Assembly: GCF_005049235.1 (NCBI RefSeq)
Contig: NZ_SUMD01000003.1
Span: 62,001-126,000, forward strand
Length of the DNA stretch: 64,000 bases
Source: Rhodococcus oryzae
Lineage (GTDB): Bacteria; Actinomycetota; Actinomycetes; Mycobacteriales; Mycobacteriaceae
Reading direction: 5' to 3'
Positions 32,259 to 46,386 of this stretch are shown piece by piece (position 1 is the stretch's first letter; each line of letters opens with the position of its first letter). The position numbers were made by a program, and so were the translations under genes. A model generated the notes under the pieces. It saw nothing but the letters and a program-made list of their open reading frames with translations. It was not told where the DNA came from and did no database searches.

Positions 32259-32366
32259 GGTTCTGCTCCCGGTTCGGGTCGGCGGTCGACCGGAGGTCAC
32301 ATTCGTACAACCAGACGATACGAAGGTGTCATTCGGTCGACCAAACCGGGCACGCGGACATAACGA

Positions 32367-32409
32367 GTACCCCACTACTCGTGTCATCGGGGCATCACGG
32401 CAATAACGT
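32367..32409 (+). promoter_or_regulatory. GTA-N4-ACTAC box promoter, copy 1
   Basis: The 12-mer GTACCCCACTAC (32367-32378) is followed after exactly 25 bp by TAACGT (32404-32409), a -10-like hexamer, 33 bp before the ATG at 32443. The box overlaps a 7-bp dyad ACGAGTA/TACTCGT (32363-32382). Same architecture as copies at 35635, 41284 and 46319. Confidence 0.55.
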
Positions 32410-32442
32410 CGAAGTCAGCCGACCAACCGACCGGAGATCCCC

Positions 32443-32982
32443 ATGCAGATCACGATGCCGACGACCCGCGACCACCCCGACACCCTTGCCCGAACCATCC
32501 GGTTCTGCAGGTCAGGCCTCGTCGCCGCGGCGGCCGAGCTGCGCGGTGAGGGCGATGCCGGACGCGCCGCGGATCTGGAGGCCGCCCGGCACCTGCTCGA
32601 CCTCGGGATCGGGCAGATGTGCACGCCGTCCGGACTGAACTCCCGGCGCTTCCAGGTCCAGCCGCTCGGCCTGCGGATCGGCAAGGCCAGGACCGACCGG
32701 CTCGTCGCGCGGGCCGACACCCTGCGGTTCACGGTGGACCTCCCGCCGGGTTCCGGCCCGGAATCGTGGGACGAGACGCTCACCGTGACCTGGTTCAACA
32801 TGGCCACCCTCGAGGGCGGAACGCACCCGCTCGATCACTTCACGGCCGAGAACCCACCGGAGCCGGCAGGCCGCTCGGCGCTGGTGCGGACCGGGGTCGG
32901 GGTGATCGTCGCCGCTATCGACGGCGCGGATGACGACGGGGGCCCTTCGCATCGGCCCGGGTTCGTTCTCATTGCGGAGTAA
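32443..32982 (+). CDS. Unknown protein of the putative LAL regulon
   Basis: 179 residues from the ATG at 32443 (CCGGAGATCC upstream). The first half is helical (HPDTLARTIRFCRSGLVAAAAELRGEGDAGRAADLEAARHLLDLGIGQM). The second half is beta-rich (RFQVQPLGLRIGKARTDRLVARADTLRFTVDLPPGSGPESWDETLTVTWFNMATLEGGTHPLDHF). No signal peptide, membrane helix or catalytic motif is visible and I do not recognise a family. It ends 55 bp before the LAL regulator and is preceded by box copy 1, so it is probably co-regulated with the downstream operon. Confidence 0.6.
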   Translation: MQITMPTTRDHPDTLARTIRFCRSGLVAAAAELRGEGDAGRAADLEAARHLLDLGIGQMCTPSGLNSRRFQVQPLGLRIGKARTDRLVARADTLRFTVDLPPGSGPESWDETLTVTWFNMATLEGGTHPLDHFTAENPPEPAGRSALVRTGVGVIVAAIDGADDDGGPSHRPGFVLIAE

Positions 32983-33025
32983 CAGCACTCTCATCGCTGA
33001 GTAACGGCATTACAGCGCCAGAGCT

Positions 33026-33031
33026 TAGAAT
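33026..33031 (+). promoter_or_regulatory. -10 element of the LAL regulator gene (leaderless)
   Basis: TAGAAT stands exactly six bases before the ATG at 33038, so the first transcribed base is probably the A of the start codon. No ribosome-binding site is present. Two imperfect GAGTAAC...-type repeats lie upstream at 32977-33013 but do not fit the 25-bp spacing rule of the four regulon boxes. Confidence 0.6.
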
Positions 33032-33037
33032 TTCGCA

Positions 33038-35638
33038 ATGGTCTTCGCGTGGCCCACGGTGAATCGGGACGACGAGCTCCGCACCGTGGTGTCCACGTTG
33101 CGCAGTCGGCGGGGTCCGTGGGGTGCCGTGCTGACCGGGGACGCAGGGGTCGGCAAGACCACTCTTGCCAGGGCGGCCGTCGGGGCCTTCGCTGGTGAAC
33201 GCCGTTGGGCCGCGGGCACGGAGTCGGCGCGCGCGGTTCCGCTGGGGGCGTTTGCCCACCTCGTCGGCGTGTCGAGCCCGATGGACGCGGCCTCGGTGTT
33301 GCGCGCGGCCCGTGAGCATCTCGTCGCCGACAGCGCCGACATCGTGATCGGTGTCGACGACGCACACCTGCTCGACCGGCTGTCCGCCACGTTCGTGCAT
33401 CAGCTCGCCGTCAACCGGATCGCACCCCTCGTGGTCACCGTCCGGACGGGGGAGCCGGTGCCGGACGCGATCACCGCCCTGTGGAAGGACAACCTGCTCA
33501 CCCGGGTGGAGCTGCCCCCGTTCACGCGGGCGGAGGCGGTCTCGCTGGTCGAGACGGTGCTCGGCGGGCCCCTCGAGGAGTCGAGCGCCAACCGGATCTT
33601 CGTGATGTCGGAGGGCAATCCGCTGTTCCTGCGGCACGTCGTGGAGGGCGCGCTGGAGGCAGGCACGCTGCGGGAGGTCGCCGGGGTGTGGCAGCTCCGC
33701 GGCGAGACCGTGATCAACCCACACCTGAGCACGCTGATCGAGTCGCGGATCGATCACCTGGACCCCGAGCTGCGGCACGTGCTGGAACTGCTCGCGTTTC
33801 AGGAGCCCCTCTCGCTCGAGGTGCTCTCGAAGCTCAGCGCCCCCGAGACGGTCGAGGCGGCGGAGAACGCGGGCCTGGTGCGGGTGCGCCGCCGCGACGA
33901 CTCCGGGCTGACGGTGAAGCTCGCGCACCCGCTGTACGGCGAGGTGGTGCGCGCAGGCACCGGCATCCTCGCCGCGCGCCGGCTGCGCGGCGAGATGGCG
34001 CGTCAGATCGCGGATCATCCGCCTGCACACGTGAGCGACCGGATCCGGTTGGCCGCCCTCGCGCTGGACAGCGACTCGCCCCCGGAGGCCGAGCTGCTGA
34101 TCTCCGCGGCCCGGGACGCGCTCACGCTCGGCGAACTGGTCCTCGGCGAGCGGCTCGCCCGCGGGGCGATGGCGATGGGCGCCGGGTTCGCGGCGGCCCT
34201 TCCACTGGCCCACTCGCTCGCCTGGCAGGGCCGTGGCACCGAGGCCGAGGCCGTGCTCGGCCCGATCGACACCAGCTCGCTGGGCGAGTTCGACCTGCTG
34301 CTGTGGTGCCTGCCCCGCTCGGCGAACCTGTTCTGGATGCTCGGTAGGCCAGACGAGGCCGCATCGGTGATGGCCTCGGTGCGCGCCAGGCTCACCCATC
34401 CGGCGGCGGTGAACCTGCTGGATGCGCTCGAGGCGATGTTCGCCGTGTACGCCGCGCAACCCGCGGCGGCGACGGCGAGCATCTACGAGGTGATCGACTC
34501 GCCCGTCGCGCTGCCGCTCGCGAAGGCCTGGGCGGGCGCGAGCGGGGCCCTGGCCACCGCATACCTCGGCCGGTTCGACGAGGTCCCCTCGTTCGCCGAG
34601 CGCGGGCTGGCGGCGGCGGCGGAGTCCGAGACCGGGTTGCTGCGCTTCACCATCGGGCTCGGCCAGGTGTACACGCAGACGATGTCGGGCGAGCTGACCG
34701 CGGCGGAGGAGCTCGCGCGGCACTACGTCGACTTCGCCGAGATGCAGCAGCCGGGCCGCTCGCTCGGTGGCGTGCTGCTGGGCCGGGTGCTCTTCGTCAA
34801 GGGCGCATTGGCCGCGGCGGAGACCGAATTCCGCCAGGCGGCAGCGGTTCTCGAGGGCACCGGCTATTCGTGGGCCTTCCTGTCCGCGGCATTCCTGTGC
34901 CAGTCCCTCGCCGCGCTCGGCCGGGCCGCGGATGCCCGCGAGGAGTTGGTGCGCGCCGAGCGCCTGTTCGGCGCGAACACCGAGGTGTTCCGGTCCGACC
35001 TGGAGCTGACCAGGGCGTGGGTCGCGGCAAGCGAGTCGGACACCAGGCGCGCGATCGCCCATGCCCGGGCGGGCGCCGACGCCGCGGCCGGGTCGGAACT
35101 GCTCGCGCAGGAGGCGGTATGCCTGTACCTGGCCACCCGGTTCGGGGACGCCACCACCGCGCCGCGCCTTGCGGAGCTCGCGGAACGGGTCCCCAGCGCC
35201 CTGATCAGGGCCGCCGCCGCCCACGCGAGGGCGTTGGCGGACGGCGACGGGGCGGCGCTGGACACCATCGCAGGGAAGGTGGAGGAGGCGGGCGCCCTGC
35301 TCTCGGCCGCGGACGCGGCTGCGCAGGCGGCGGCGGCGCACGCGAGCGCAGGGAACCGCCGCGCCGAACTCGCCTCGACCGCCAACGCCAAGCGGCTCGC
35401 CGATCTGTGCGGGGCCACGACGCCCGCACTCGCGGTGGTCGCCAAGCCGCTGCCGCTGACCGAGCGGGAGCGGGAGGTCGCGTCGATGGTGGCGCTCGGC
35501 CTGTCCAACAAGGAGATCGCGGATCGCCTCGTGGTCTCCGTCCGCACGGTCGAGGGTCACATCTACCGTTCGTGTACCAAGCTGAACGTGGCGGACCGGG
35601 CCGCGCTGGCGGACGCGGTCCGGGTGGGAAGCAGGTAG
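33038..35638 (+). CDS. Large ATP-binding LuxR-family (LAL) transcriptional regulator
   Basis: 866 residues. The N-terminal NTPase domain has Walker A LTGDAGVGKTTLARA (Lys40) and Walker B DIVIGVDDAHLLD. A long helical, TPR-like middle section (about residues 300-780) follows. The C-terminal LuxR HTH is LTEREREVASMVALGLSNKEIADRLVVSVRTVEGHIYRSCTKLNVADRAALADAV. LAL proteins are ATP- and inducer-dependent activators (MalT type). It lies between two transcription units carrying the GTA-N4-ACTAC box, and the five-gene operon begins 80 bp after its stop. It is therefore the leading candidate to bind the box. Confidence 0.92.
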   Translation: MVFAWPTVNRDDELRTVVSTLRSRRGPWGAVLTGDAGVGKTTLARAAVGAFAGERRWAAGTESARAVPLGAFAHLVGVSSPMDAASVLRAAREHLVADSADIVIGVDDAHLLDRLSATFVHQLAVNRIAPLVVTVRTGEPVPDAITALWKDNLLTRVELPPFTRAEAVSLVETVLGGPLEESSANRIFVMSEGNPLFLRHVVEGALEAGTLREVAGVWQLRGETVINPHLSTLIESRIDHLDPELRHVLELLAFQEPLSLEVLSKLSAPETVEAAENAGLVRVRRRDDSGLTVKLAHPLYGEVVRAGTGILAARRLRGEMARQIADHPPAHVSDRIRLAALALDSDSPPEAELLISAARDALTLGELVLGERLARGAMAMGAGFAAALPLAHSLAWQGRGTEAEAVLGPIDTSSLGEFDLLLWCLPRSANLFWMLGRPDEAASVMASVRARLTHPAAVNLLDALEAMFAVYAAQPAAATASIYEVIDSPVALPLAKAWAGASGALATAYLGRFDEVPSFAERGLAAAAESETGLLRFTIGLGQVYTQTMSGELTAAEELARHYVDFAEMQQPGRSLGGVLLGRVLFVKGALAAAETEFRQAAAVLEGTGYSWAFLSAAFLCQSLAALGRAADAREELVRAERLFGANTEVFRSDLELTRAWVAASESDTRRAIAHARAGADAAAGSELLAQEAVCLYLATRFGDATTAPRLAELAERVPSALIRAAAAHARALADGDGAALDTIAGKVEEAGALLSAADAAAQAAAAHASAGNRRAELASTANAKRLADLCGATTPALAVVAKPLPLTEREREVASMVALGLSNKEIADRLVVSVRTVEGHIYRSCTKLNVADRAALADAVRVGSR

Positions 35639-35677
35639 CCCACTACGCGCGCCGTTCCCTGGCGTAGGCGACACAAT
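35635..35677 (+). promoter_or_regulatory. GTA-N4-ACTAC box promoter, copy 2 (five-gene operon)
   Basis: GTAGCCCACTAC (35635-35646) overlaps the LAL stop codon. After exactly 25 bp comes CACAAT (35672-35677), a -10-like hexamer, 41 bp before the ATG at 35719. It drives the hydrolase-GMC oxidoreductase operon. Confidence 0.6.
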
Positions 35678-35718
35678 GGAAGGGACAACAACCGCCCCTT
35701 CCGATGAACGGAGCCGCG

Positions 35719-36843
35719 ATGCGGCGATCCCAGCGCAGAAGGCTCGATCCTGCGCGTCTCGACGGTGCCGCCTTCGCGACGCCCGCCCCCGGGCAGTCCG
35801 TCTCGCGACAGGCCCGGTTCGAGACCGTCCCCTTCCACACCACGGAGGAGGAGCCGCGCGAGCTCAACCTCAAGCACCTGCTGCCGGGGTCGACCGCCCC
35901 TGGCGAGGGGCCGGTGCTGTTGATCGGCGGCACCAGCGTCCGCGCCGACATCTTCTCTCCGCCGACGGAGGACACGCTGCCGGAGTTCCTCGCCCGCGCC
36001 GGCTACGACGTCTGGATCCTCAACTGGCGGGCCAGCATCGACTTCGCCCCCAGCGAGTACCACCTCGACGACGCGGCGGTGTACGACCACCCCGCCGCGG
36101 TGCGGACGGTGCTGGAGCGGACCGGAGCCGAGACCCTCAAGGCGGTGGTGCACTGCCAGGGCTCGACGAGCTTCATGATGTCCATCGTCTCCGGCCTGCT
36201 GCCGGAAGTGACCACGGTGGTGAGCAATTCGGTGGCACTGCACCCGCAACTGACCTCCCTGTCGTTCCTGAAGCTGCCACTCGCCGTCGCCACCTTCGGC
36301 AAGGTGATGCCCTACTTCAATCCGCAGTGGGGTCTGCACGCGCCCGGGTTCTGGCCCAAGGTGTTCGACTGGGCGGTGCGGGCGACGCATCACGAATGCA
36401 ACAACGCGGTGTGCAAGCACAGCAGCTTCACCTACGGCAGCGCCTTCCCGACGCTGTGGTCGCACGAGAACCTGGACGAGGCGACCCACGAGTGGATCAA
36501 GGGCGAGTTCGGGTTCGTCCCGGTCACCTTCTTCGCGCAGATGGCCGAGTGCGCCGCCGCAGGCCATCTGGTGACGATGGGCAACTACCCGGATGTGCTG
36601 CCGAGCGACCTGTTCGCGCAGGATCCGCAGACCGACGCCCGGTTCGCCTTCATGACCGGCGACCAGAACAACACCTTCCTGCCCTCGGGAATGGCGAAGA
36701 CCTTCGACTACTTCGAGCGGATCGCGCCGGGGCGCCACGTGTTCCAGCAGATGCACGGGTACGGGCACCTCGACGTGTTCCTCGGCAGGCACGCCGCGCG
36801 GGACGTCTTCCCCTTCATCCTCGACGAACTGAACAGGGGCTGA
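35719..36843 (+). CDS. Alpha/beta hydrolase related to the hydrolase part of GMC-oxidoreductase fusions
   Basis: 374 residues from the ATG at 35719 (GGAGCC five bases upstream); ATG 35704 lacks a ribosome-binding site. Strands VLLIGGTSVRADIFSPPTEDTLPEFLARAGYDVWILNWRAS lead to an elbow VVHCQGSTSFMMS. As in PhaC-type enzymes the likely nucleophile is Cys146 (HCQG), with Ser149 as alternative. The acid region is FMTGDQNNTFLP and the final His is MHGYGHLDVFLGRHA. The same kind of domain, with HC.GS, occurs in large bacterial proteins fused to GMC oxidoreductases (from memory). First gene of the five-gene operon. Confidence 0.85.
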   Translation: MRRSQRRRLDPARLDGAAFATPAPGQSVSRQARFETVPFHTTEEEPRELNLKHLLPGSTAPGEGPVLLIGGTSVRADIFSPPTEDTLPEFLARAGYDVWILNWRASIDFAPSEYHLDDAAVYDHPAAVRTVLERTGAETLKAVVHCQGSTSFMMSIVSGLLPEVTTVVSNSVALHPQLTSLSFLKLPLAVATFGKVMPYFNPQWGLHAPGFWPKVFDWAVRATHHECNNAVCKHSSFTYGSAFPTLWSHENLDEATHEWIKGEFGFVPVTFFAQMAECAAAGHLVTMGNYPDVLPSDLFAQDPQTDARFAFMTGDQNNTFLPSGMAKTFDYFERIAPGRHVFQQMHGYGHLDVFLGRHAARDVFPFILDELNRG

Positions 36844-36845
36844 CG

Positions 36846-37208
36846 ATGCCGCGTTCGCTGCTGTGGAGCCACCTGCTGCTGTTGCTCTGCGCCTCGCTGC
36901 TCATGGGCGCCGGACTGGCCGCCGAACTCTCCGACGAGGCCACCGGTCCGCGGCCGCTGCCCGACGGCTGGTTCCTCGCGCTCTGGCTGATCGCGTTGCT
37001 GACCGGTTTGCTGATGATGGGCACCGAATGGCTCAGCGGCCTCGGCTGGCCGTCGCGGGTCGCGGTGGTAGCCGGGGTGGCCGCGACGGCCATCGCGTAC
37101 AAGACCGACTCGCTCAGCTCCGTCGCGGTCGTCCTGTGGTTCGTCCAGTGGGCGGCGGTGGCGTACTGGTTCTACCGGCTCGCCTTCGACGCCAGGGCGG
37201 ACCGGTGA
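36846..37208 (+). CDS. Small four-helix membrane protein
   Basis: 120 residues, starting 2 bp after the hydrolase stop. Four hydrophobic segments: HLLLLLCASLLMGAGLAAEL, WFLALWLIALLTGLLMMGTEWL, VAVVAGVAATAIAYKT and VAVVLWFVQWAAVAYWFYRLAF. There is no signal peptide cleavage site and no catalytic motif. It could anchor or assemble the operon's oxidoreductase and phosphoesterase at the membrane, which is inference from coupling only. Its stop overlaps the next start (GTGA). Confidence 0.7.
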   Translation: MPRSLLWSHLLLLLCASLLMGAGLAAELSDEATGPRPLPDGWFLALWLIALLTGLLMMGTEWLSGLGWPSRVAVVAGVAATAIAYKTDSLSSVAVVLWFVQWAAVAYWFYRLAFDARADR

Positions 37209-37819
37209 GCGGGCCGTCCGGGCGGTCCGTCGCCGGGATCCGCTTCGGGGAGACGATGACCGGGCAGATCACGCTCGGTGAGACCGACCCGAGGTCGGGG
37301 TATCGCAATCCGGGCGCATTCGGTGTCGTGGTGCGCGGGACCATCCACATCGAGGACCTGGGCGCGTTCCTCGACGACCCGCGCCACGAGGCGCGGCTGT
37401 CCGGCGAGGTCGACATCCCGTCGCTAGGTGGCCGATTCGAGTCCGACTCGGGGCGCTTCGGTCTGTTCACTCCGACGGAGCAGGCCCGGATGACCCACAT
37501 GGTCTACGAGTTCGGTGTGGACATGGGCGGGGTCGGGCACTGGTTCCGGGGCCACAAGGAGATCCGGGTCGCGGGTCCGTGGCGGCTGTGGCCCGCCACC
37601 ACCACGCTGTTGGTGACCCTGCACGAGGGGGACCGCGAGGGCCCGGTGGTGGCGGCGGGCATGCTGCGGTTGCGCATGACGGCCTTCACGGCGCTGCTCG
37701 GCTCGCTGACGGTGACCGGTGGCGTGTCGATGCGGCGCAGGTGGGCGGCCTCGGGGCGGTTCGCCGCGTTCTTCGCAGGCGGACTGATCTCCACCTACCT
37801 GCTGCGGCGGCGGGCATGA
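37205..37819 (+). CDS. 'FGETD' accessory protein: stand-alone version of a domain found in GMC fusions
   Basis: 204 residues from the GTG at 37205. The N-terminal FGETMTGQITLGETDPRSGYRNPGAFGVVVRGTIHIEDLGAFLDDPRHEARLSGEVDIPSLGGRFESDSGRFGLFTPTEQARMTHMVYEFGVDMGGVGHWFRGHKEIRVAGPWRLWPATTTLLVTLHEGD closely follows a segment that, from memory, lies between the GMC oxidoreductase and hydrolase parts of roughly 1100-residue fusion proteins. The C-terminus ends with a hydrophobic segment (FAAFFAGGLISTYLLRRRA) that could tether it. The fold appears beta-rich and lipocalin-like. Coupled on both sides by 4-bp overlaps. Confidence 0.65.
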   Translation: MSGPSGRSVAGIRFGETMTGQITLGETDPRSGYRNPGAFGVVVRGTIHIEDLGAFLDDPRHEARLSGEVDIPSLGGRFESDSGRFGLFTPTEQARMTHMVYEFGVDMGGVGHWFRGHKEIRVAGPWRLWPATTTLLVTLHEGDREGPVVAAGMLRLRMTAFTALLGSLTVTGGVSMRRRWAASGRFAAFFAGGLISTYLLRRRA

Positions 37820-39702
37820 CCCTGCCGTATCGGAGGGACGCCGGGCGGCTCACGATCAGCCCGCAGCGCAAGGTGGGCTGGTTCGAGGCCCGGCAACTCG
37901 TCGCCCTCGGCGCACGGGCCGTCGCCGCGTCCGTGATCGGTTCGATGAGCGGGCGTCGCGAGATCATGGCCGCGCTCGAGGCCGAACCGGCGTTCTGCGC
38001 GGATTGCTCGGGCGCGGAAGAGATCTGGCTGGACTACATGGCGGACACCGGCGACGGTTGGAATGCCACCGCCTCCGTCACCTGGCTGCTCGGCCGGGAC
38101 GGACTGGTCGTCGCGGAACCGGGCGAGCCGGTACCGCAGCGGGTGCCGCACGACTGTCGGACCGAGGGTCTGCCGACCGCGGGTCCCGGGCAGACGGTGC
38201 TGCCCGCGGGCGAGGTGCTGTTGCTGGGCGGCGACCAGGTCTACCCCGCGGGATCGAGTCAGGAGTACCAGCACCGGCTGGTCGACCCGATGCGCAGCGC
38301 CCGGATCGCGCATCCGCGGGGGCGCAGGCTCTTCGTCATCCCCGGGAACCACGACTGGTACGACGGCCTGACCAGCTTCATCCGGCAGTTCTGTCAATCA
38401 CCCGACGGCAGAACCTGGTTCGGCGCCTGGGAGGCACAGCAGCGACGCAGCTACTACGCGCTGCGGCTGCCGCACCGGTGGTGGGTCTGGGGTGTGGACA
38501 CCGCCCTGGAGGACGACCTGGACCCGCCGCAGTACGACTACTTCCGGGCCCGCGCGCAGCAACTGGAGCCCGGCGACCGGGTGATCCTCTGCGTACCGAA
38601 CCCGACCTGGATAGAGGACGCCGCGGCCGGAACCCCCGGCGGCCGAGTGGATTCCGCGACCGCCACGAAGCTCGACATCATCATGGACCTGGCCCGCAGA
38701 CCCGACCGCGACATCGAGGTGCCGCTGGTCCTCAGCGGCGACCACCACCACTACGTGCGCCACCACGGCACCGTAGGGGAGCAGGAACGCCACTACATCG
38801 TGTGCGGCGGGGGCGGCGCCTTCACCCAGGGCACGATCGACACCCCGATGGACGTGTCGATGTCGGACGGGCCCTCCTACGTCGGCTCGGCCCGATTGCA
38901 GGCGGCCTTCCCGACAGAGCGACAGTCCGTTCGGCTGCGACGCGGGGTGCTGGGCTTCCCGGCCTCGAACGTCTTCTTCACCGCCGTGCTCACAGTGCTG
39001 TCCGGGTTCGCTGCGATGCTGCTGGGAGCGGGCGGCGGCAACGAGGGGATCCTGGGTGGCGTTCTCGGCACGCTGCAGGGGTTCGGACCGGCCGCGGTGT
39101 GCCTCGCCATCGTCGCCGCGTTCGTGGCGTTCGCGGTCAGCGGTCGCGCACCCGGGATGCGTCCAGCCGCGGCGGGTGCGGTCGGCGTGGTGCACGCGCT
39201 GCTCCTGCTGACGGGCGGGTTCCTGCTCGTGTGGGCGGTGCTGCAGGCCGGCCGCGCCTGGTGGCTCAGCGTCCCGATCTCGTTGGCGGCGCTCTACCTG
39301 TACTGCGGCATGCTCTTCGGTCTGTACCTGTTCCTGAGCCACAAGTTGCTTGGCATGCACAACCTGGAGGTCTATTCCGCGCAGGGCCTCGAGGGCTACA
39401 AGTCCTTCCTCCGGATTCACATCTCCGCGCAGGGGCTGCATGTCTATCCGATCGGCCTGCGCGCACCGTCGACCAGCTGGGTGGCGGCGCCAGGCGTGGA
39501 GTCCCGCGACGACCCGGCACCTCGGGGTCGGTTCCGCCGGACCGGATCGGTGAGCCTCGACCTACCGGACGGCTGTCAGCGGGTCATCGACCCCGTCGAA
39601 CCGCTGCGCCCGCACCTGATCGAGGCGCCGTTCCTGATCCCCAACGGCGCCGTGTCGGATTCCGCGCCGCCCACCGTGCGGGCGCCGGGCGGTTCGCCGT
39701 GA
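37816..39702 (+). CDS. Membrane-bound calcineurin-like metallophosphoesterase
   Basis: 628 residues. N-terminal catalytic half: WLDYMADTGDGWNATASVTWLL (first metal Asp), LLLGGDQVYP, FVIPGNHDWYDG, VPLVLSGDHHHYVRHHG and HYIVCGGGGAF, which together are the metallophosphoesterase metal-ligand set in order. The C-terminal half has about five membrane helices (VFFTAVLTVLSGFAAMLLG, AAVCLAIVAAFVAFAVSG, AAGAVGVVHALLLLTGGFLLVWAVL, LAALYLYCGMLFGLYLFL) and a soluble tail. Substrate unknown; a phosphorylated or pyrophosphorylated lipid at the membrane is plausible given the operon. 4-bp overlaps join it to both neighbours. Confidence 0.85.
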   Translation: MTLPYRRDAGRLTISPQRKVGWFEARQLVALGARAVAASVIGSMSGRREIMAALEAEPAFCADCSGAEEIWLDYMADTGDGWNATASVTWLLGRDGLVVAEPGEPVPQRVPHDCRTEGLPTAGPGQTVLPAGEVLLLGGDQVYPAGSSQEYQHRLVDPMRSARIAHPRGRRLFVIPGNHDWYDGLTSFIRQFCQSPDGRTWFGAWEAQQRRSYYALRLPHRWWVWGVDTALEDDLDPPQYDYFRARAQQLEPGDRVILCVPNPTWIEDAAAGTPGGRVDSATATKLDIIMDLARRPDRDIEVPLVLSGDHHHYVRHHGTVGEQERHYIVCGGGGAFTQGTIDTPMDVSMSDGPSYVGSARLQAAFPTERQSVRLRRGVLGFPASNVFFTAVLTVLSGFAAMLLGAGGGNEGILGGVLGTLQGFGPAAVCLAIVAAFVAFAVSGRAPGMRPAAAGAVGVVHALLLLTGGFLLVWAVLQAGRAWWLSVPISLAALYLYCGMLFGLYLFLSHKLLGMHNLEVYSAQGLEGYKSFLRIHISAQGLHVYPIGLRAPSTSWVAAPGVESRDDPAPRGRFRRTGSVSLDLPDGCQRVIDPVEPLRPHLIEAPFLIPNGAVSDSAPPTVRAPGGSP

Positions 39703-41264
39703 GGTACGACGTGGTGGTCGTGGGCAGCGGGTTCGGCGGTGCGGTCGCCGCGTGCCGGCTCGCCGCGGCGGGGCGCAGCGTGCTGGTGCTCGAACGGGGC
39801 AGGCGATGGGAACCGGAGGACTATCCGCGCAGGCCCGGCGACGCGTGGCTGTTCGATCCCCGTGCCCCGCATCGGCGCAACGGCTGGCTGGAGCTGCGGT
39901 TCCTGGATCAGATGGTCGTCGCGCAGGGCGCGGGGGTCGGCGGGGGATCGTTGATCTACGCGAACGTGTGCATCGACGCCCGGCCGGAGGCGTTCGACTC
40001 CGGTTGGCCGTCCGCGATCACGGCGCGGGAGATGGCGCCCTACTATCGCGACGTCGCCGAGATGCTGACCCCGATGGAGATCCCCGCGGGTCAGCACACT
40101 GCTCGGCTCGAGCTGATGCGGCGGGCCGCGGACGCCATCGGGGAGCCCGAGCGTTTTCAGAAGGTGCCCTTGGCGATCCGGTTCGACCCGGGTTTCACGC
40201 ACGCGCCCGCGGAGACACCCGAGTACGAGAGGTCGGTCGCGGCGCCCAACGCCCAGGGCCGCGAGCAGGGCACCTGCGTGCACTGCGGCAGCTGCGACGT
40301 CGGGTGTCCCACGCGGGCGAAGAACACCCTGGACCTGAACTACCTCGCGGCGGCGGAGGACTCCGGTGCCGTCATCGCGCCGCTGTCCCTTGCGCGGTAC
40401 CTCTCGCGGGAGGACGGGGGCTGGCGGGTGCATTTCGATCACCTGGACGGCGGTCGCCGCAGGCCCGACTCGGTGACGGCACGCCGGGTGATCCTCGCCG
40501 CCGGGTCGCTCGGGTCGACGGAACTGTTGCTGCGCTCGCGAGACGAGCACCAGACGCTGGGGGACCTGCCGCGTGCCCTCGGCCGCGGATGGAGCTCGAA
40601 CGGAGACTTCCTGACTCCCGCCGGGTACGGCCGCATGTCGGTGGCACCGACCTCCGGTCCCACGATCACCTCGGCTATCGACTTCCTCGACGGTTCGCGC
40701 GGCGGGCGGTACTTCGTGGAGGACGGCGGGATCCCGAACCTGCTGCGGAACTGTTTCGAGCAGCGGCTGCGCGACGGGGTCGGCTCGCCGTTGCGTCGTC
40801 GCATGTGGCTACGCCTGTCGCGGGCAGGCGCGTTCGACTCGGTGATGCCGTGGTTCGGTCAGTCGGTCGACGCGGCGGACGGCTCCGTCTACCTCGGTCG
40901 CGGCCGGGTGCGGCCGTGGCGCCGGGTGGTGAAGCTGGACTGGAATCCGCACCGCTCCGAGACGGTGATCGGGGCCATGGCCGAGATGCACGGGCTGCTG
41001 ACGGAGGCGACCGGGGGCAAGCCCAACCCGTTGCTCACCTGGAAGAGGTTCCGGGCCCTGGTGACGCCGCACCCGCTGGGCGGATGCAACATGGCGGCCT
41101 CGCCCGCGGCCGGTGTCGTCGATCACGCGTGCCGGGTGTTCGGGCAGGACGGGCTCTACGTCATGGACGGCGCGGTGATACCGCGGGCGATCGGGAGGAA
41201 CCCGTCGAAGACCATCGCCGCGGTCGCGGAACGCGCGGTCGCCCTGCTGCTCGCGGAGGACTGA
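39699..41264 (+). CDS. GMC-type flavin oxidoreductase (cholesterol-oxidase-like)
   Basis: 521 residues from the GTG at 39699, overlapping the phosphoesterase stop. FAD-binding GSGFGG (9-14), ERGRRW, then QGAGVGGGSLIYANV, the segment that positions FAD in cholesterol-oxidase-like GMC enzymes. A cysteine cluster CVHCGSCDVGC (Cys193, 196, 199, 203) could hold an iron-sulfur centre and is shared by this subgroup. The C-terminal catalytic His lies in VTPHPLGGCNMA, and DGLYVMDGAVIPRAIGRNPSKTIAAVAERA closes the fold. It oxidises an alcohol or sterol-like substrate. Last gene of the operon. Confidence 0.88.
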   Translation: MRYDVVVVGSGFGGAVAACRLAAAGRSVLVLERGRRWEPEDYPRRPGDAWLFDPRAPHRRNGWLELRFLDQMVVAQGAGVGGGSLIYANVCIDARPEAFDSGWPSAITAREMAPYYRDVAEMLTPMEIPAGQHTARLELMRRAADAIGEPERFQKVPLAIRFDPGFTHAPAETPEYERSVAAPNAQGREQGTCVHCGSCDVGCPTRAKNTLDLNYLAAAEDSGAVIAPLSLARYLSREDGGWRVHFDHLDGGRRRPDSVTARRVILAAGSLGSTELLLRSRDEHQTLGDLPRALGRGWSSNGDFLTPAGYGRMSVAPTSGPTITSAIDFLDGSRGGRYFVEDGGIPNLLRNCFEQRLRDGVGSPLRRRMWLRLSRAGAFDSVMPWFGQSVDAADGSVYLGRGRVRPWRRVVKLDWNPHRSETVIGAMAEMHGLLTEATGGKPNPLLTWKRFRALVTPHPLGGCNMAASPAAGVVDHACRVFGQDGLYVMDGAVIPRAIGRNPSKTIAAVAERAVALLLAED

Positions 41265-41283
41265 TCGGAGGTCGAACGGGCGG

Positions 41284-41326
41284 GTAGTGGACTACTGGTG
41301 CCGATGTCGGTGGGCAGTGTCACGAT
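41284..41326 (+). promoter_or_regulatory. GTA-N4-ACTAC box promoter, copy 3
   Basis: GTAGTGGACTAC (41284-41295) lies 20 bp after the GMC oxidoreductase stop. After exactly 25 bp comes CACGAT (41321-41326), a -10-like hexamer, 52 bp before the ATG at 41379. The box is a near-palindrome (GTAGT/ACTAC). Confidence 0.6.
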
Positions 41327-41378
41327 GGAGTCAGCGCGAACGATAGACATGTGGGACGGATGAACCGAGGTGACTCCG

Positions 41379-41684
41379 ATGACATGCATGACCGTCAGGG
41401 TGGTCAACACGACCAACGAGGAACTGCTGCTCGACGACGGGCCGCCGAGCCCTGTGCAGCCGCCGCCCCCGCGGCGGATCGGTCCGCACGCGACCGGCGA
41501 GTTCCGGACGGACACGGACCTGTGTTATCTGCTCGGCGGTGATCCGGACCGGGCGATCTTCGTGCAGCTCAACGGTGCCGTCTGGGCGCCGCCCACCTCT
41601 TCGATCCGGGCCGCGGCCGGCCCTTCCGCGCTCGAGGTCGAGGTCAGCCCCGCACCGTGGGTGCACGCGCCGCACGTCGCATGA
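41379..41684 (+). CDS. Small unknown protein of the putative LAL regulon
   Basis: 101 residues from the ATG at 41379 (CGAGG eight bases upstream); GTG 41370 and ATG 41388 are alternatives. The sequence MTVRVVNTTNEELLLDDGPPSPVQPPPPRRIGPHATGEFRTDTDLCYLLGGDPDRAIFVQLNGAVW reads as a short beta-sandwich like small aegerolysin- or hemolysin-type cytosolic proteins (VNTT...L.L.......G.....P...I.P...G.F....). That resemblance is weak. No signal peptide. It has its own box promoter (copy 3), so it is regulated separately from the operon before it. Confidence 0.6.
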   Translation: MTCMTVRVVNTTNEELLLDDGPPSPVQPPPPRRIGPHATGEFRTDTDLCYLLGGDPDRAIFVQLNGAVWAPPTSSIRAAAGPSALEVEVSPAPWVHAPHVA

Positions 41685-41702
41685 CCGGCCGCGCCTCCGG
41701 GC

Positions 41703-44540
<2,838 letters not shown>

Positions 44541-44551
44541 GACCCACGGCC

Positions 44552-44587
44552 CGGGCGCATCAGCCGACGAACAGGCCGATGCGCCCG
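44552..44587. terminator. Hairpin between purA and the convergent tyrosinase-like gene
   Basis: A perfect 10-bp stem (44552-44561 with 44578-44587) has a 16-nt loop. It starts 11 bp after the purA stop and overlaps the last codons and stop of the convergent gene. Likely purA terminator; no long U-run. Confidence 0.55.
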
Positions 44588-46239
44588 ATCCGTAGCGGCA
44601 GAGTGGTTTTCGTGGGAAGGCCGGACTCCACGGCGCCCGAGTGTGCCCTCGTGGTGGGCCGCACCGGCTGAACCGTCACCGTCAACGCCGCCGGGTCCCA
44701 CCGGTAGGCGGACGCGAGCGCCTGCACCAGTGCGGTGATGTCGAAGGTGAAGCCCAGCCGCCCGTCGGCGTCCACGCCGAACAGCGAGAAGGTCCCGGCG
44801 AGGTGATGCTCGGGCTTACCGTCGACCTCGGCGTCGGGCAGGTTCATGTAGACGTGGTATACGCACCCCGGGTTCCGTTGTGCCGCAAGGCCGTCGACCG
44901 TCAGCAGCACCGCGCCGAAGCCGGCCGCGGCGGCGGTGTCCGGCGCGTGCTCGACCACCGGGAGGCTGCTCGGGAAGACCTCGAGCCCGACGGTGGTTCG
45001 TCCGGTCAGCTCGGTCGGTCCGGGAGTCGACGCGACCAGCGTGGGATTCGGCGCGACCGGGACCACCCGCTGCGGCCGGACGGGGAGCTGGGCCTGGTCG
45101 TCGTAGCTGTATCCGAGTCGATCGACGTGATCGAGCACGTCGCGGACCGGGCAGTCGACGGGGCGGCCGTCGGTGTCGAAGAACCGGAACTCGGCGTCGA
45201 GCCAGTCCCCATCGGTCGGATTCGCGTGGCGCTCGAGCCACTGCACCCACAGCCGGTCGAGATTCGCGTGGTGCAGCCAGAAGATCGGGTCGCGGGGCGC
45301 GGAGTCGGCGTTGCTCATCAGTGCACCGAGCTCCCCGCCCGGATCGCCGCCGATGGCCGCATGCACCGCGCCGTGCGGGATGTTCTCCAGCTGCCCGGAG
45401 AACCCGGTGCGCATGGCGCCGGAGAACGACGGCTGCCACATGGCGGTGAACGAGGACGTGATGGTGGGGCTCAACGGATCCCCCGCCATGAGGTCGGCAT
45501 TGCGCAGCGGGGCCGCGAGCGCCAGCGGATTGGGTGAGCCGTCCGGGAGGGCGAGCCCCGTATCGCGGAACGGGTAGGGGAGCGTGCTCTGCGGCTCCGG
45601 GTTGCCGTAGTTCCAGTAGGGCAGCGCGAAATCGGCCGGCCCGCCGTTGTCGATGACGGCCGCCCGCAGGATCTGCTCGAAGAAGTACAGGTACATCCGG
45701 TGCCACGGGAGGAAGAAACGGTTGCCGTCGTGGCTGTCGCGCGCATCGGCGAAGGTGGCGCGGTAGGCGCGGTACAGGTTCGCCTGGAACTCCCAGCTGG
45801 TGGGGTCGTCGGCCGGCCGTGCCTGCATGGTGCGCACCGCCTGCGCGTAGGCGAGCAGGGTCTGGTCCCAACCACGCCCGGTGCTGAGCCGCCACACGTT
45901 GCGCCGGACCCGTTCCGTCGACCGGGCCGGCGGGTTCTCGGCGGTGGCCTGCACCTGGTCCAGCCCGAGGACCGCCCGCGGCCCGAGTTCACCGGTCGCC
46001 GCCGCGGCGGGGGTCCCCAACTCGCTGATCTGGAACCGGCGCACCGCCGCCTCGGTCTCGTTGCCGTAGGCCTTGTCGATGCCGTGCACCGGCAGGCTGT
46101 TCGGGTCCCAGGACAGCAGGGCGGTCTGGACCTTCCCCACCGCGTCGCCTGCGTCGTTCCTGGTCCGCGACATGGTGTCGAGGCCCGCGGCGATGGCGGC
46201 GAGCACGCCGTCCCCCTGGAACAGTGCGGAAACGATCAT
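44560..46239 (-). CDS. Tyrosinase-family protein with N-terminal peptidoglycan-binding-like domain and degenerate CuA site
   Basis: 559 residues, no signal peptide. Residues 32-95 (AVGKVQTALLSWDPNSLPVHGIDKAYGNETEAAVRRFQISELGTPAAAATGELGPRAVLGL) read as a PGBD-like three-helix domain. The tyrosinase core follows: SWEFQANLYRAYRATFADARDSHDGNRFFLPWHRMYLYFFEQIL, then CuB ligands His289/His293 (IPHGAVHAAIGG) and His323/His324 (DPIFWLHHANLDRLW). In the usual motif the first CuA His is in QANIHG; here it is Tyr, and the second is shifted to His170 with Asp171 at the normal place. Only His180 is canonical. A C-terminal beta-domain (about 390-559) follows. Box copy 4 lies upstream. Confidence 0.85.
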   Translation of the reverse strand: MIVSALFQGDGVLAAIAAGLDTMSRTRNDAGDAVGKVQTALLSWDPNSLPVHGIDKAYGNETEAAVRRFQISELGTPAAAATGELGPRAVLGLDQVQATAENPPARSTERVRRNVWRLSTGRGWDQTLLAYAQAVRTMQARPADDPTSWEFQANLYRAYRATFADARDSHDGNRFFLPWHRMYLYFFEQILRAAVIDNGGPADFALPYWNYGNPEPQSTLPYPFRDTGLALPDGSPNPLALAAPLRNADLMAGDPLSPTITSSFTAMWQPSFSGAMRTGFSGQLENIPHGAVHAAIGGDPGGELGALMSNADSAPRDPIFWLHHANLDRLWVQWLERHANPTDGDWLDAEFRFFDTDGRPVDCPVRDVLDHVDRLGYSYDDQAQLPVRPQRVVPVAPNPTLVASTPGPTELTGRTTVGLEVFPSSLPVVEHAPDTAAAAGFGAVLLTVDGLAAQRNPGCVYHVYMNLPDAEVDGKPEHHLAGTFSLFGVDADGRLGFTFDITALVQALASAYRWDPAALTVTVQPVRPTTRAHSGAVESGLPTKTTLPLRIGRIGLFVG

Positions 46240-46287
46240 TGAGCGGGCCCCCCGGACGGTTCGGACATCGAAACTGTTTCGATCCTG

Positions 46288-46330
46288 ATTCTTCGGTGGA
46301 TAGTCCTCACAGTCGCGGGTAGTGCACTAC
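46288..46330 (-). promoter_or_regulatory. GTA-N4-ACTAC box promoter, copy 4 (tyrosinase-like gene)
   Basis: GTAGTGCACTAC (46319-46330) is a perfect 12-bp palindrome, extending to 14 bp. On the minus strand, after exactly 25 bp, comes AAGAAT (46293-46288), a -10-like hexamer, 48 bp before the ATG at 46239. It faces the divergent LysM lipoprotein gene, whose own -10-like TAGGGT (46375-46380) is not at the 25-bp distance. Confidence 0.6.
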
Positions 46331-46386
46331 CTGTTCCGCGGGCCATCCTGTCCGAGTACCCGTCCGCAGTGGCTTAGGGTCGCGGG

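Follow-up and report, generated by a model that had tools for sequence, protein, structure and literature searches.

What binds the promoter box that recurs around the gene for a large LuxR-type regulator in Rhodococcus oryzae, and which genes does this box serve? The box was pointed out in an earlier note on 64,000 nucleotides of this genome (contig NZ_SUMD01000003.1, positions 62,001 to 126,000; hereafter called the window, whose numbering is used for all positions given without a prefix). According to that note, a 12-bp box occurs four times within 14 kb at a fixed distance from a −10-like hexamer, and its natural candidate binder is the LAL (large ATP-binding LuxR-type) regulator encoded among the four copies at 33038–35638. 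Judged from the comparisons presented here, the four boxes are most likely operators of this LAL at activator-dependent class II promoters, one of which would be autoregulatory.

Four boxes in the window are each followed by a −10-like hexamer

The pattern GTASNNNACTAC was found in the window only at 32367, 35635, 41284, and 46319, compared with 0.06 matches expected from 100 dinucleotide shuffles. All four boxes reported in the earlier note were thus present, and a −10-like hexamer could be read off the sequence 25 bp past each of them in the direction of a gene (4/4). The first box (GTACCCCACTAC), which is less symmetric than the other three, occupies 32361–32378 of the forward strand together with its flank, lies 5′ of the genes for a 179-amino-acid protein and the LAL, and scored 24.0 bits with R1, a sequence-only model of the element built from 72 sites; TAACGT follows at 32404–32409, predicting a transcription start site near 32416. 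The second putative operator (GTAGCCCACTAC; 35629–35646, forward strand, 28.0 bits) overlaps the stop codon of the LAL gene and is followed by CACAAT at 35672–35677, with a start site expected near 35684. The third (GTAGTGGACTAC; 41278–41295, forward strand, 26.3 bits) has CACGAT at 41321–41326, which would place the start site near 41333. The fourth (GTAGTGCACTAC; 46319–46336, 22.8 bits) lies on the reverse strand, where AAGAAT reads from 46293 to 46288 and the start site may lie near 46281. The genes behind these promoters were also those named in the earlier note, i.e., an unknown protein, a hydrolase–GMC oxidoreductase operon, a small protein, and a tyrosinase-like protein.

Throughout the genome (5.37 Mb, 31 contigs), 14 distinct places matched GTASNNNACTAC, four of them inside these 14 kb. 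Since a control pattern read backward was more numerous than GTASNNNACTAC genome-wide, it is the clustering of the matches that is unusual, not their occurrence as such.

The distance between box and −10-like element is nearly constant across genera

The spacing was examined in two sets of sites. For the genus set, GTAGNNNNCTAC was listed in six same-genus genomes (86 places), and the flanks were read for 77, comprising 69 sites in five genomes that encode a LAL of the same clade and 8 sites in the sixth genome (G004). In the former, NANNNT stood at exactly 25 bp in 41/69 sites (either orientation), compared with a mean of 3.1 (standard deviation, 2.2) at the other offsets from 0 to 79, the largest of which was 10, at offsets 26 and 44. 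G004, where no full-length LAL of the clade was found (the best match covers the helix-turn-helix (HTH) part only, E = 1e-10), had NANNNT at 25 bp in 0/8 sites. The named set consisted of 79 loci with LAL relatives from Rhodococcus, Gordonia, Nocardia, Mycobacterium/Mycolicibacterium, Williamsia, Tsukamurella, Aldersonia, Antrihabitans, and other genera, with 56 analyzed GTAGNNNNCTAC sites in 44 of the loci. Here, 40/56 sites had NANNNT at 25 bp, the mean for other offsets being 2.8.

When 26 bp was also allowed, the numbers rose to 49/69 genus sites and 54/56 named-set sites, and all 44 site-holding LAL loci were included. No such peak was observed for four other inverted-repeat patterns (4, 49, 12, and 12 sites; loci L045–L058 and L117–L195). 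Many copies without a preferred spacing would have contradicted the earlier note; instead, a clear peak at 25 bp was found. The spacing that it described as fixed is mostly 25 bp, but is 26 bp in a minority of sites. An operator lying over the −35 region at such a distance from the −10 element is the arrangement of a class II promoter.

The element is a palindrome of about 18 bp without a recognizable −35 hexamer

Column frequencies over 84 oriented sites gave the consensus AWTCGR-GTAG-YSSR-CTAC-TCGTGHC, followed by an uninformative spacer and NANNNT; the eight core letters and two −10 letters are invariant in this table by construction, whereas the flanks are not. Symmetry is seen over about 9 bp on either side of the center. 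The element is longer than the 12-bp box and palindromic over about 18 bp. It is a single inverted repeat, whereas a MalT-type operator is made up of at least two short, directly repeated boxes. The right flank has an extra TG where the −35 region would fall, and neither TTGACA nor another clear −35 element appeared in the column frequencies. Upstream, none of the columns from −89 to −7 (box, 1–12) exceeded 0.12 bits among the 84 sites, a measure that leaves room for boxes farther away or at variable distance.

The −10 element at offset 25 was SANNNT in 35 and TANNNT in 1 of the genus sites (n = 69); the corresponding counts in the named set (n = 56) were 20 and 14. The lack of a consensus −35 in the column frequencies and the weak −10 in these letter counts are both features of class II promoters. 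If the −10 element is taken as −12 to −7, the center of the palindrome would lie at −43.5.

Box, spacing, and −10 are conserved at orthologous promoters

The box, its spacing, and the −10 were kept at all four promoters in two related genomes (G001 and G005). The LAL of G005 is 79% identical to that of the window; in this genome, 30/32 core letters were retained versus 46/100 spacer letters, and its box 1 departs from the window copy in two core letters. The −10 of promoter 1 occurs at the same place in loci L047, L045, and L117. In addition, the gene for the 179-amino-acid protein, with its preceding box, lies upstream of the LAL gene in two Antrihabitans loci (L117 and L118). The −10 of L118, read by eye, is TAGCGT at 26 bp from the box, and its row in the alignment of orthologous promoters is one base out of register.

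In L047 (G001:C30:6031–8627), the LAL orthologue matches as two overlapping pieces in different frames (query residues 1–210 and 205–866), indicating that the LAL gene is split in that assembly; the boxes are intact.

The element co-occurs and clusters with one clade of LAL regulators

The LAL of the window (866 amino acids, forward strand) ends in a GerE/LuxR HTH domain (Pfam, E = 1.9e-15; residues 806–859), as expected for the LAL subfamily. Its N-terminal region is AAA/STAND-like and its middle region TPR_MalT-like, the AAA_16 match (5.3e-5) and the TPR_MalT-like match both being under Pfam's own cut-offs. Two stretches conserved in the LAL alignments A1 and A2, G-GVGKTT and GVDDAH, are read as Walker A and B motifs and would represent the N-terminal ATPase of this subfamily. 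No autoinducer-binding domain was among the Pfam matches of the LAL, which has an ATPase/TPR-like sensor part instead. As the only full-length LAL of its clade in this genome (the next match is HTH-only, E = 7e-11), it is the natural candidate that the earlier note had taken it for.

Co-occurrence was scored in 248 genomes of the order, using a threshold of E ≤ 3e-4 for R1 and E ≤ 1e-103 for a close LAL. R1 matches were detected in 31/40 genomes with a close LAL versus 2/208 others (Fisher's test, 5e-29), and, within the family, in 29/34 genomes with a close LAL versus 2/16 without (P = 1e-6). All genomes with a LAL at E ≤ 1e-150 had an R1 match (20/20), and among the 61 genomes with a best LAL between 1e-60 and 1e-103, only G204 had one. 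Besides the R. oryzae genome (G000), 25 LAL-bearing genomes contained an R1 match at a distance of over 20 kb from any listed LAL, outside the flanks used for training. A single R1 match below E 0.01 was found in G004.

Plain-pattern sites clustered with the LAL genes as well: 11/61 lay within 5 kb of a clade LAL versus 0.36 expected when G005, four of whose sites had been fetched for lying near LALs, was excluded, and 10/47 versus 0.33 expected when the R. oryzae genome was also excluded. An R1-based proximity test was discounted in part because R1 was partly trained near LALs. The box precedes the LAL gene in loci L119, L126, L139, and L144; in the window, it precedes the gene ahead of the LAL. 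L119 and L126, from two Aldersonia genomes, carry tandem LAL genes with a box and −10 between them.

Genes downstream of the four promoters in the window

The gene behind promoter 1 (32443–32982, forward strand) encodes the 179-amino-acid protein, which has no Pfam match; it lies 55 bp upstream of the LAL gene and is probably co-transcribed with it. Relatives of this protein are encoded upstream of the LAL in L047, L045, L117, and L118. Behind promoter 2, all on the forward strand, come an α/β hydrolase (35719–36843, with 35704 as another possible start; Abhydrolase_1, 1.3e-4, below the curated cut-off), a small membrane protein recognized from its translation (36846–37208; no Pfam match), a protein of about 187 amino acids to which translation, Pfam scan, and relatives assigned no function (37256–37819), a metallophosphoesterase-like membrane protein (37816–39702; Metallophos, E = 9.5e-4, just under the cut-off), and a GMC oxidoreductase (39699–41264; GMC_oxred_C, 7.6e-18, and GMC_oxred_N, 7.2e-12). 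The hydrolase and the small membrane protein also have relatives elsewhere.

Promoter 3 precedes a gene for a small protein of 101 amino acids (41379–41684, forward strand; 104 amino acids if GTG at 41370 is the start) that has no Pfam match and has relatives in L047, L045, and L117. The tyrosinase-like protein behind promoter 4 (44560–46239, reverse strand; Tyrosinase, 5.4e-31; PPO1_DWL, 9.1e-13) has an N-terminal peptidoglycan-binding-like domain (PG_binding_1, 6.7e-5).

Candidate targets outside the window

Ten places in the R. oryzae genome matched R1 below E 0.03, namely the four window sites and six elsewhere (C1:654703, C12:250096, C23:132320, C12:132832, C12:583290, and C1:287240, the last being the weakest at E 0.027). 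Hence, the regulon looks larger and more dispersed than the four window promoters. Directly behind one element lies the gene for a 1447-amino-acid protein with TIR, nSTAND1, and WD40 domains by Pfam (L297:1722–6062, minus strand; also L112), a layout like that of an animal or plant NLR immune receptor. Other targets in this genome are a SLATT/DUF4231 protein (L110, Pfam), a Trypsin_2–Endonuclease_NS fusion (L298:478–2562; also L113, Pfam), in which a trypsin-like protease and a DNA/RNA non-specific endonuclease are joined in one protein, and a protein without a Pfam match (L114). One element copy (GTAGTGCACTAC; R1, 30.6 bits) lies between dnaA and dnaN (L111:1831–1883, minus strand; G000:C12:132832–132880), a gap that is the usual site of the replication origin, and has a near-identical counterpart in G001 (L069).

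In relatives, the products of the first downstream genes include wall hydrolases, LCAT-like proteins, Tle1-like hydrolases, and animal-type haem peroxidases. A nucleotide cyclase, a TIR protein whose SIR2-like part scored below threshold, and the LAL itself are also among them. Members of the genus also have a luciferase-like monooxygenase (L286) and an FAD-dependent oxidoreductase (L294) as targets; L291 and L292 resemble the latter in their N-termini. The median distance from the predicted start site to the chosen start codon was 41 bp (82 cases). Target genes were picked by a simple coding-score script, and some picks, such as the L141 group, are surely wrong.

A Pfam scan of 77 hand-picked target proteins gave five An_peroxidase, five Tle1-like, four TIR_2, two nSTAND1, and two SLATT_1 matches; none of these families was among the 25 of 105 Pfam matches listed for a control set of 74 proteins encoded near box matches without the spacing. 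PADLOC matched 38 families in the 77 target proteins versus 13 in the 74 control proteins, the control matches including a TIR protein and a mad3 match at 4e-32. Immunity-type domains were thus commoner in targets than in controls, though not decisively. The two SLATT proteins are 80% identical, and the TIR proteins probably represent two orthologous pairs; since several of the matching targets are thus related to one another, the enrichment is modest.

Discussion

On the sequence comparisons above, the promoter class is real and conserved with respect to its element, its spacing, its orthologous sites, and its co-occurrence and clustering with the LAL. Conservation, clustering, and co-occurrence across 248 genomes favor the earlier view of a shared class II-type activator site with the LAL as its candidate binder. 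That the LAL is the binder, that it binds as a dimer and activates rather than represses, and where transcription starts and which genes are co-transcribed, we infer from the same comparisons. In the mechanism that we propose, a dimer of the C-terminal GerE/LuxR domain would bind the palindrome of about 18 bp within AWTCGR-GTAG-YSSR-CTAC-TCGTG. With the palindrome centered about 43.5 bp before the transcription start, the LAL could touch RNA polymerase there (class II activation) and make up for the missing −35 and the weak −10, which in the genus is mostly SANNNT, not TANNNT. Promoter 1 would then drive the 179-amino-acid protein gene and the LAL gene (positive autoregulation), promoter 2 the hydrolase/metallophosphoesterase/GMC oxidoreductase operon, promoter 3 the small protein gene, and promoter 4 the tyrosinase gene. 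Some six further promoters built alike lie elsewhere in the genome, and the clade LALs of related genera may use the same promoter build.

Several observations weigh against this assignment. R1 was trained partly on sites near LALs, and its training sites had been picked for a −10 at 25 bp. Nine of the 40 LAL-bearing genomes have no R1 match, and two of the 208 others (G204 and G240) have one despite lacking a close LAL. No analyzed GTAGNNNNCTAC site was present in the fetched stretch of 35/79 named LAL loci, nor was a relaxed match found at the genus LAL loci L048 and L049 (together one such case, 50% identical, R. spelaei), L056, and L057; the LAL of a site-less locus could act on promoters elsewhere, but a strict one-to-one link is weakened. 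Because the genomes share ancestry, the counts are not independent and the P values overstate independence. The offset table of the named set (L117–L195) is also high at offset 2 (16/56), besides 26 (19/56). In 28/69 genus sites, the −10 at 25 bp is missing; most of these sites are taken for chance matches. Finally, the flanks are asymmetric beyond about 18 bp, so that contacts with the polymerase may contribute to the conserved pattern.

The binder could also be a different regulator found together with the LAL. The regulon would then be a true activator regulon, but its binder would be a different DNA-binding protein co-inherited with the LAL, which would merely be a frequent target. The position of the LAL gene downstream of the box in several loci, as for a target, agrees with this, as do the LAL loci without a site and the finding that, of the R1 matches outside the R. 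oryzae genome, just 19/82 have a listed LAL within 20 kb. However, the LAL clade predicts the presence of the promoters over the 248 genomes, plain-pattern sites cluster with the LAL, the size and position of the palindrome suit a LuxR-type dimer, and G004 has other LuxR-type HTH proteins yet not the promoters; we therefore consider a co-inherited binder unlikely.

A promoter of an alternative (extracytoplasmic function-type) sigma factor, with the box as its −35 region, would explain the near-fixed distance to the −10-like element. It is nevertheless very improbable: the 25–26 bp that separate the end of the box from the −10 exceed what sigma regions 2 and 4 span, the box forms a long palindrome, and the housekeeping sigma factor has NANNNT as its −10 form. 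The notion that the four boxes are chance matches chosen by eye fits the shortness of the core pattern and the genus matches without the spacing, but deserves hardly any credence: it is contradicted by the shuffle expectation for the window, by a spacing peak present in two data sets and in none of the control patterns, by orthologous conservation, and by the 248-genome co-occurrence. Both the alternative-sigma and the chance explanations were rejected on spacing, palindromy, and control patterns.

At class II promoters, the lux box overlaps the −35 region. LuxR-type quorum-sensing activators resemble the LAL system proposed here in their inverted repeat, but have an autoinducer-binding domain that Pfam does not show in this LAL. 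The lux box is given as a 20-bp inverted repeat in one study (PMC9628970). The LAL family, with MalT as its prototype, is matched in size (866 amino acids), in the GerE C-terminus, in the AAA_16-like N-terminus, and in the TPR_MalT-like middle. According to two papers (PMC6099782, PMC9628970), MalT operators are short boxes in direct repeat, unlike the one long inverted repeat described here, whose distance to the −10 hardly varies. TpdR of Rhodococcus jostii TMP1 is likewise a Rhodococcus LAL activator (788 amino acids, with a promoter upstream of a catabolic operon), but the site suggested by its authors is a 15-nt direct repeat, TnnAAnnGCGGAnTC, and differs from the present box (PMC6099782). 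SCO6993 of Streptomyces coelicolor, a 606-amino-acid LAL, is reported to bind palindromes and its own promoter and to repress antibiotic regulators; the printed sites are unlike GTAG-N4-CTAC, and the authors could not predict a consensus (PMC9628970). In the open-access literature searched, none of the papers listed described such a regulon, in line with the earlier note, which knew of none, and no paper contained any of six box strings. The gene network with its LAL promoters is apparently undescribed so far.

Some targets resemble immunity proteins in their domains, and an antiviral role of the network is conceivable. We entertain, with considerable doubt, an innate immune response at the level of transcription, shared by the Rhodococcus, Nocardia, Gordonia, and Mycobacterium relatives, in which the LAL acts as an NLR-like (STAND) activator that detects attack or damage to the envelope and induces intracellular immune effectors together with surface-acting enzymes. 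The effectors would be the TIR–nSTAND–WD40, SIR2-like–TIR, SLATT, and trypsin–nuclease proteins and the cyclase, and the surface enzymes would be the haem peroxidases, tyrosinase, phospholipase-like and LCAT-like proteins, and wall hydrolases. Antiviral systems pair trypsin-like proteases with metallo-β-lactamase (MBL)-type nucleases (PMC12799240), whereas Pfam assigns the Endonuclease_NS of the fusion here to another nuclease family. MalT and LuxR are each named once in a survey of conflict systems, both in the reference list (PMC7159879).

In conclusion, the elements appear to define a new regulon of a known kind and most likely serve one clade of LAL activators as operators. Such a promoter signature gives a poorly understood family of large regulators a readable DNA code and can be scanned for in related genomes to find candidate targets. 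Since several targets carry bacterial-immunity domains, it may lead to an inducible defence programme, and a testable network emerges from the many LAL regulators of Mycobacteriales that are still orphans and from unknown secreted enzymes of the order.

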